NCBI GenBank assembly: GCA_003554615.1
Contig: PWGX01000034.1
Span: forward strand, 1-36,069
Direction of reading: 5' to 3'
Length of the DNA: 36,069 nt
From: Syntrophomonadaceae bacterium
GTDB lineage: Bacteria; Bacillota; Dethiobacteria; DTU022
Made by a program: the position numbers and the translations under genes. This document shows positions 8,067 to 34,976 of the stretch, piece after piece (the stretch's first letter is position 1; each line of letters starts with the position of its first letter). Below the pieces are notes generated by a model that searched no databases, was not told the DNA's origin, and saw only the letters and a list, made by a program, of their open reading frames with translations.

Positions 8067-8090
8067 ATTAAGCAATCTTTTACTTTAAAA

Positions 8091-8335
8091 GCTGTGAAGG
8101 ACAGGAGTAGGCACTATTCTTTTTCAGAGAGCCGGTGCTGCTGGAAACCGGTAAAGAGTATTGCTGAACGTCGGTCCGGAGCCGCCCGGCTGAACATCTA
8201 GTAGGCCGGACCGGGTTGATACCGTTACCACCATCGTAGAGGAAGGCACCTTTAACCTTTTTTAAAGGTCAGGTATAAAAAGGGTGGTACCGCGGAGGCA
8301 GTCCCTTCGCCCCTTTGGGCGGAGGGTTTTTTATA
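8091..8335 (+). promoter_or_regulatory. T-box leader, probably valine-responsive, upstream of ilvE
   Basis: A tRNA-sensing riboswitch. Stem I begins with the kink-turn region GTGAAGGACAGGAGTAG (8094-8110). GGAC at 8099-8102 pairs with GTCC at 8174-8177 below the specifier loop, whose 3' side reads U-GAAC-GUC-G; I read the specifier as GUC (valine) at 8170-8172. A stem III-like hairpin lies near 8248-8270, and the T-box core AGGGTGGTACCGCGG is at 8281-8295. The UGGU in the core would pair with an ACCA tRNA end, which suits a tRNA with discriminator A such as tRNA-Val. Uncharged tRNA binding should favour the antiterminator over the terminator at 8302-8332 and turn on the operon. Confidence 0.93.
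8302..8335 (+). terminator. T-box intrinsic terminator
   Basis: A GC-rich hairpin with arms CCCTTCGCCC (8303-8312) and GGGCGGAGGG (8317-8326) around a CTTT-type loop is followed by TTTTTT. It is the regulated terminator of the T-box leader. The upstream strand lies just after the T-box core and competes with antiterminator folding. Confidence 0.9.
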
Positions 8336-32484: not shown

Positions 32485-33399
32485 ATGGGCGGACTTTTTG
32501 CATTGTTGGCATCTCTTGGTTACTCGTCATTTAATATTTTAAATCGTAAAGGGATGATGAATAATAACTCCGGGAATGTATGGGATATCCGTTTAATTGG
32601 CTCGTTTTCGACTTTGAGTATTTTTTGTTTAGGAGTTGCTATATTAGCATTTTTCGATATTAACGTCATACTAGATTTCAAGCATTTAAATGTGCAGGCT
32701 GTATTACTACTTTTACTATCTGGAATATCAGGTGCGTTTGTGGGTGCCCTTTTTATTACTATGGCTATTTCTCAGATTGGAGCATCACAGACCTCGGTTT
32801 TATATGGAGGTTCGAGCCCGCTCTTTGCTGTTTTGCTTTCAATTATCCTTCTTAATGAAATACCAGATTTAATCGGAATGGTTTCCGTCCTGGCGATTAT
32901 AGTTGGAATAGTTATAGTTGGATATCACGGTCAAGAAGGTACTGTAGTGCTTTTAGAAAAAACAAAACTCGCAGGAGGTATTATTGCTTTATCGGCTGGG
33001 TTATGCTTTGCATTGGCACATATGGCTAGGGGAATTGCTTTAAATTTAGGAGCAACTCCTAATACAGCATTTATAATTCCCAACACTATGTCCCTAATAA
33101 TTATAACGGTCTTTTTCTATAAGCAATCAAGGAGACTTAAAGATCTCAAAAGAATTAGTCGAACAAGCCTATACTGCTATATTGGGGGAGGACTCGGTAT
33201 TATCATAGGTGCCTATAGCACTTTAATAGCCTTCACCATGATCCCGGTGTGGCAAGCTGTTGCTATTTTGAGTATTCAACCGCTGTTAGTTTTATTTTTA
33301 TCATGGTTGTTTTTAAAGCAGGTAGATAAAATTAGTTATCGCCTGATTGTAGGTGCATGTCTGGTAACATTAGGGGTAGTAAGCCTGAATGTTTACTGA
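32485..33399 (+). CDS. EamA/DMT-family transporter
   Basis: A 304-residue integral membrane protein with about ten hydrophobic segments in two repeats, the EamA (drug/metabolite transporter) layout. The first half ends near residue 145; the repeat ends with a Q-P-L-L-V-L-F-L-S-W-L-F-L segment typical of the family. Substrates of this family range from amino acids to metabolites and cannot be told here. AAAGGA lies about 12 bases before ATG. The 213 bases upstream (32272-32484) and the 153 bases downstream show no feature I can support. Confidence 0.82.
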   Translation: MGGLFALLASLGYSSFNILNRKGMMNNNSGNVWDIRLIGSFSTLSIFCLGVAILAFFDINVILDFKHLNVQAVLLLLLSGISGAFVGALFITMAISQIGASQTSVLYGGSSPLFAVLLSIILLNEIPDLIGMVSVLAIIVGIVIVGYHGQEGTVVLLEKTKLAGGIIALSAGLCFALAHMARGIALNLGATPNTAFIIPNTMSLIIITVFFYKQSRRLKDLKRISRTSLYCYIGGGLGIIIGAYSTLIAFTMIPVWQAVAILSIQPLLVLFLSWLFLKQVDKISYRLIVGACLVTLGVVSLNVY

Positions 33400-33552: not shown

Positions 33553-33963
33553 TCATTTTGGAACTTCCCGGGACACCATAGTATCCAAGATTTCTGCAGC
33601 TTTAAGAATTACACGAAAACACTTTTCCTCTTCTGTCCGGTAATTTTCTTTCAAGTAATCACAATCTATACTGCCCATTGTTTCAACATAATCCTCCAAA
33701 AATTCTCGGGTGAGTTCCTTAATCCTGTCATTTTCATGTGCCCTATCCTGCACGTTCATTATACTCAACACCATTACTCCCGATATTAAGGCACCACAAG
33801 TCTTTTCAACTCCCATTCCTCCACCGAAACCGGCAGACATCTTTAGGGCGTTTTTTGTAAGATCTAAATTGTAGGTCTTGTTAGCGCCATAAAGAATTTT
33901 CTCTGCTCAGTTAAAGTCTATGTTTCCTTCTCCAAACCCTTGACGAATTAAATCAGCCAGCAT
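33553..33963 (-). CDS. Selenoprotein of the C_GCAxxG_C_C family (in-frame TGA read as Sec)
   Basis: The reading frame from ATG 33963 to the stop at 33553 is 136 residues if the in-frame TGA at 33907-33909 is read through. Upstream of TGA the frame gives Q-G-F-G-E-G-N-I-D-F-N; downstream it gives A-E-K-I-L-Y-G-A-N-K-T-Y-N-L, then F-G-G-G-M-G-V-E-K-T-C-G-A-L-I-S-G and two later cysteines (D-C-D-Y, K-C-F-R). The family normally has a cysteine in N-C-A-E at exactly the TGA position, so residue 19 should be selenocysteine. GAAGGTG precedes ATG by about 9 bases. The family is thought to be redox-active. Without recoding, a 95-residue piece from an internal ATG at 33840 would be called, lacking the first motif. 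A nonsense mutation is the alternative. Confidence 0.78.
33876..33895 (-). promoter_or_regulatory. Candidate bacterial SECIS stem-loop
   Basis: On the minus strand, 12-31 bases after the TGA, TCT-TTA and TAA-CA-AGA can form a short bulged stem with loop TGGCGC, whose second base is G. Position and loop fit the usual bacterial SECIS layout, but the stem is AT-rich and not strong. Thermodynamic folding and comparison with homologues are needed. Confidence 0.35.
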
Positions 33964-34005
33964 AAGAAGAAACACCTTCTTTCTAAAAATGGTTTGGTGA
34001 AATGG

Positions 34006-34138: not shown

Positions 34139-34900
34139 TATATTCACAGCAGGATAAATTTGATTTGTTAATTTTATAAGATCAGCGCCCTTAAAACATA
34201 TTTTCAAGGTCAGTTTTATTAAATTTAGTTCTTATTTTATCGACTGGAAACCATTACCATCCCGAAATAATCGGGTTGACACAGGCTAAAAGTATCATGA
34301 GGAAAGGAAGAGGGCACAGTGTTTAACTGTGCCCAATGCAATATATATAAAAGAGGGGGTCAACTTGCTTTAAGTATAAGGTCTGATGGTTACAAGAATA
34401 TTACAGGCAGATTATTTTTATATTACATGAGGTCTCAAGTGGATTGATAAATGCTGGTTCTGATTAATTCTATAATCAATCCTGACCACAAAACTTCCCA
34501 GATAGCTATAGAGTTTTTGATTTTGAAGGTCAATCTAATAGTCAGACCTTTATATACAGCAATCCACGAATAAAACAATATACAATGAAAAGTGTCGGTG
34601 TGTGTGAACTGTAATTTAATAAGCTACTCTTTACCGAAATGTTTTTCTACAATTGATGAGATAATGGTGATTAAGTTAATTATTAAAAGCCCTAATTATA
34701 GAAAAGGTCTTTTATTTAAATTGGTTTTAAAGATTTTGGAGATTCAAGCTGTAAATAGCAATAAAAGCTCGGAACCGGGGGTAGTGGGTTCTATAATCCT
34801 TTTTTACCAGATCATTTTCTACTTTTGTATCTTGCGGAAATTGACTTGTGTTGTTAAAATTGAAATATAAACAAATTTTAATAATTTATGGAAGCTAAGA
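34139..34900. other. Non-coding interval with nested hairpins
   Basis: No convincing gene is found. 34261-34364 holds several inverted repeats: CCCGA/TCGGG (34261-34275), a 9-bp perfect hairpin GGGCACAGT/ACTGTGCCC (34312-34334), and GTTGAC/GTCAAC (34275-34280 with 34359-34364) that could close the group. A 92-codon open frame at 34592-34870 has no ribosome binding site, no recognisable domain and low-complexity content, so it is not called. Confidence 0.4.
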
Positions 34901-34903
34901 TTT

Positions 34904-34976
34904 CCTGACCGTAGTTGGACGCTTGGTCAGGGGTGAGCGAGTAGCGTAACCGGCTATAATACTGAGCCGGATTTTT
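34904..34976 (+). promoter_or_regulatory. Structured leader with pseudoknot and terminator before the zinc-ribbon gene
   Basis: CCTGACC (34904-34910) and GGTCAGG (34925-34931) form a perfect 7-bp hairpin. Its loop contains ACGCT (34919-34923), complementary to AGCGT (34943-34947); a second AGCG is at 34936-34939. CCGGCT (34950-34955) and AGCCGG (34965-34970) then form a terminator followed by TTTTT, just before the AAGGAGGG ribosome binding site. This looks like an attenuator or riboswitch-type leader, or a short RNA with its own terminator. It matches no class I can name. Confidence 0.55.

Follow-up and report, generated by a model that had tools for sequence, protein, structure and literature searches.

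The window analysed here, a stretch of 36,069 nucleotides from a Syntrophomonadaceae bacterium (contig PWGX01000034.1), raised the question of whether an in-frame TGA on its minus strand ends a protein or is read as selenocysteine (Sec). The frame (33553-33963) starts with an ATG at 33963-33961 and runs through 18 codons, the TGA at 33909-33907 (codon 19) and 117 sense codons to a TGA stop at 33555-33553. The coordinates and codon counts given by the sequence-only reading, which had proposed a selenoprotein at this place, were exact. It had also expected a routine gene call to drop the first 41 residues together with the key one, and indeed the list of open reading frames held only a 95-aa tail from the ATG at 33840 (33553-33840, minus strand), the TGA being among the 41 codons lost. 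A probable ribosome-binding site region, AAGAAGGTG, was located 5' of the upstream ATG (33970-33985, minus strand) and was identical in the alignment with G001, a different species of the same genus. Protein-coding constraint was seen on each side of the TGA, with synonymous as well as non-synonymous codon changes both before and after it.

The read-through product of 136 residues was compared with family profiles. It matched PF09719 with 88 bits (cut-off 27) and TIGR01909 with 95.4 bits (cut-off 47.4), each as one continuous match that covered residues 17 to about 130 and spanned the TGA. The same family match, with "1 TGA" inside, was returned by the genome-level six-frame searches. Positions 19 (the UGA), 56, 101 and 115 aligned with the four invariant cysteines of the family, the CGA motif included, and the residue after the CGAxx motif was Ser in place of G. 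The match to the C_GCAxxG_C_C family was of full length, with the first of its invariant Cys positions occupied by UGA; the window protein differed in that its subfamily is a Firmicutes one (Syntrophomonadaceae-like) and carries a KEKCFRVILKAAE block at the C-terminus. TIGR01909 bears the title "C-GCAxxG-C-C family (seleno)protein", and Sec-containing members, form 1 and form 2, have already been published (PMC13188914; PMC9312934), as the sequence-only reading had stated. The window protein was likened to these forms at the level of the family, not by the Sec column.

Further, homologues were aligned (49 sequences, UGA written as C). Six columns were invariant, namely C19, G49, C56, G57, C101 and C115, four of them Cys. 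The column of position 19 held Cys in 42 sequences and TGA in 7, while neither TAA nor TAG occurred there among the 49. It was therefore borne out that the TGA stands at the first conserved cysteine (N-U-A-E) and that Cys and Sec codons are exchanged at a presumed redox position. The seven TGA-form genomes (the window's own, G000, and G001, G091, G092, G397, G439 and G476) belong to three taxonomic families. G001 was found among 60 relatives, with one TGA in an otherwise open frame and a protein 95% identical in amino acids to that of the window. G091 and G092, of another family, were added when 98 genomes of the class were searched (77% and 72% identity, respectively). A profile search of 398 genomes of the phylum recovered relatives with the Cys form, about 50-60% identical, as well as another three TGA forms, all of family f129. 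In a maximum likelihood tree the seven UGA rows fell into two clades, G000/G001/G091/G092 and f129, as against 6.7 changes with shuffled labels. It was concluded that the gene very probably encodes a 136-residue C_GCAxxG_C_C selenoprotein in which the UGA at 33909-33907 is read as Sec.

The possible role of the protein was approached through its structure. An AlphaFold model built from the 49-row alignment was confident and mostly helical (pLDDT 94.6), while the model from a four-row alignment was poor (pLDDT 57.5). A Foldseek search of the confident model against the PDB gave no relative among the matches listed (best E 0.56). The family profile did match split-Soret cytochrome c (PDB 1h21) over residues 39-110 (E = 1e-4), and this match aligned Cys19 and the CGA motifs; however, it was weak and partial, and 1h21 was not among the 50 listed fold matches of the confident model, so the relationship was treated as a lead only. 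Split-Soret cytochrome c is an electron-transfer protein reported to hold "a novel iron centre" (wording of a title, Abreu et al. 2003, as cited in PMC5701242). A phmmer match to urocanate hydratase (E 0.023) was dropped, since it was not recovered by the family profile. The protein would be a thiol/selenol redox or metal-binding protein, most likely a helical one in which Sec19, the first of the four invariant Cys positions (Sec19, Cys56, Cys101 and Cys115), acts as a selenol partner of, or a ligand together with, the other cysteines. A redox role is the more usual role of Sec, and in our assessment, made by analogy only, a thiol/selenol redox pair would be clearly favoured over a metal site with a Sec ligand. 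A further reading would combine an Fe-S or other metal site at the four invariant positions, as the weak match to split-Soret cytochrome c hints, and Sec19 as a selenolate ligand of that cluster, with a SECIS that departs from the bacterial consensus; this combination was considered unlikely.

For the UGA to be read as Sec, a SECIS structure would be formed in the mRNA just 3' of it, its expected location being 33850-33906 on the minus strand. The published bacterial consensus requires a small apical loop that contains a G, at 16-37 nt beyond the UGA (PMC13188914). Folding and scans showed no consensus hairpin there, which is the weak point of the reading as Sec: a constrained hairpin scan after the UGA found none fitting the published consensus in either the window's own genome or G001, the z-scores of minimum free energy folds against shuffles were near 0 after the UGA of the window gene, and the RNAalifold consensus fold of the seven TGA genes was weak (-1.4 kcal/mol). 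Conservation at synonymous sites just after the TGA was not measurably higher (p about 0.4), and Rfam gave no SECIS support for the window gene. A clear hairpin with GG in the loop region, at about +15 to +31, was present in the f129 gene of G476. According to the published review, a subset of genuine selenoprotein genes fails the bacterial consensus (PMC13188914), and the window gene may have a SECIS of another shape.

It was also considered that an ordinary gene of the Cys form could have acquired the TGA by a recent nonsense mutation, or that the TGA is a sequencing error. A single change converts TGC or TGT to TGA, no SECIS could be demonstrated, and a sister MAG was found without the 5' half of the gene, all of which would fit a pseudogene. 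However, the same TGA in an open frame was kept in G001, G091 and G092 (72-95% identity) as well as in the three more distant genomes, and hence it is not a chance event; a sequencing error is untenable, as independent assemblies share the codon. A mutated or misread gene was accordingly judged highly improbable, and the reading as Sec was retained.

Decoding as Sec would be carried out by Sec-tRNA(Sec) and SelB. The sequence-only reading had proposed a check for selA, selB, selC and selD in the same genome, and the outcome was divided: none was found over the cut-offs in the window's own assembly, whereas selA, selB, selD and tRNA-Sec were present in genus-mates. The own assembly comprises 982,902 bases (0.98 Mb) and is 71% complete, while its congeners span 1.3-2.5 Mb; SelA, SelD, tRNA-Sec and a full SelB were the components searched for. 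Of the candidates for tRNA-Sec below the cut-off in this genome, two loci were checked and proved to be ordinary tRNAs, for Arg and Ser. In G001, selA, selB and selD lie together on one contig (C36, 30473-34903), and SelD itself carries one TGA. A tRNA-Sec scoring 72-74 bits was detected in 10 of 12 genomes, and ARAGORN reported tRNA-SeC(tca) in the two congener loci checked. A second UGA gene was found in the own genome at the end of contig C54 (32983-34330), cut by the contig end and adjoining an fdhE-like gene. It encodes a formate dehydrogenase alpha subunit with the canonical Sec site (DHCARLUHSTTVAGL), and, with its TGA at ARLUHS, it is a probable second selenoprotein. Because the genus-mates carry the sel genes and tRNA-Sec and the own genome holds this second UGA gene, the missing machinery is best read as incompleteness of the assembly; since the sel genes form one cluster, two assembly gaps suffice to account for all four absences. 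The formate dehydrogenase and SelD come from the same organisms as the window gene and, like it, have a UGA in frame where a redox residue stands, although the proteins are unrelated and a strong hairpin follows the UGA of SelD, in contrast to that of the window gene.

The distribution of SelB was examined in 22 genomes. SelB was over the cut-off in five of the six TGA-form genomes tested, the sixth being G092 (75% complete), while 9 of the 16 Cys-form genomes had no SelB, a difference in the right direction whose weight is limited by the relatedness of the genomes.

The same observations bear on the possibility that a tRNA of the suppressor type, with a UCA anticodon, decodes the UGA as Cys or some other residue. 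Some bacteria have a tRNA-Cys that reads UGA, or unusual tRNAs resembling tRNA-Sec, and the own assembly was without visible Sec machinery, as such a decoding would allow. Against this, the genus-mates possess a canonical tRNA-Sec (74 bits; anticodon tca) along with SelA, SelB and SelD, UGA serves as an ordinary stop elsewhere, including the end of the window gene, and the TGA form was seen only in SelB-bearing genomes, incomplete assemblies excepted. Decoding by a suppressor was thus rated very improbable, and Sec remained the preferred identity of residue 19. Finally, translation from Met42 (33840) of the 95-aa C-terminal part only, with the upstream frame as a relic, is the gene caller's choice but hardly credible, since the N-terminal 41 codons are kept as protein in TGA and Cys forms alike (e.g., G.FGE..DFN-U-AEKILYGAN), the lost part holds the invariant Cys/Sec column, and no clear ribosome-binding site precedes 33840.

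The surroundings of the gene were also compared. The convergent neighbour in the window is an EamA-family transporter gene (32485-33399, plus strand; Pfam EamA), and the neighbour in G001 is a universal stress protein gene. In G091 and G092, a nitroreductase-family gene lies directly upstream on the same strand (L104 3203-3718 and L105 3199-3714, respectively), and its product is a possible functional partner there. The gene context is uninformative on function. The segment 33562-34140 of the window, comprising the gene and about 180 bases of upstream non-coding sequence, was 96% identical to L106 7688-8263 of G001, while the immediate flanks could not be aligned; because of this, the gene and its upstream segment may have been transferred recently as a cassette. 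The sister MAG B1Sed10_67 (L072 4997-5213) retained the gene's 3' half alone, about 345 bases being missing, the UGA included, and a short GTTG was common to both sides of the junction; the loss is either a deletion or an assembly error.

Several other elements were observed in the window. A conserved intergenic element at 34430-34313 (minus strand) occurs in 15 copies in 11 of the 12 genomes of the genus and is absent from Rfam. It consists of TGTAAT repeats with an 11-bp period, a TATAAT-like -10 box, an invariant GTTGACCCCCTC and a terminator hairpin with a T-run. The element resembles a small RNA gene, so far undescribed, whose promoter is of the response-regulator type. Eight regions were examined, and most of them have the element between a BirA-like biotin repressor gene and a glutamate-dehydrogenase-like gene (named from sequence and not by family search). 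A cyclic di-GMP-II riboswitch aptamer (34881-34963, plus strand) lies in front of an ORF at 34975 that encodes 71 aa and is zinc-ribbon-like, and a T-box leader (8085-8317, plus strand) precedes an apparent branched-chain amino acid gene cluster.

Selenoproteins of the C_GCAxxG_C_C family were previously known, and the window gene adds one more member. With its UGA at a critical Cys site, its product almost certainly contains selenium and belongs to a redox family that was known before, and standard annotation, which otherwise shortens the gene by 41 residues, should be corrected. Because no consensus SECIS was found, the gene can serve for testing bacterial SECIS elements of a less typical kind. 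The family gains Firmicutes lineages in which UGA forms make up two clades, and the finding shows at which of the four invariant Cys positions Sec can stand, which suggests that the reactive residue is the one at that position.
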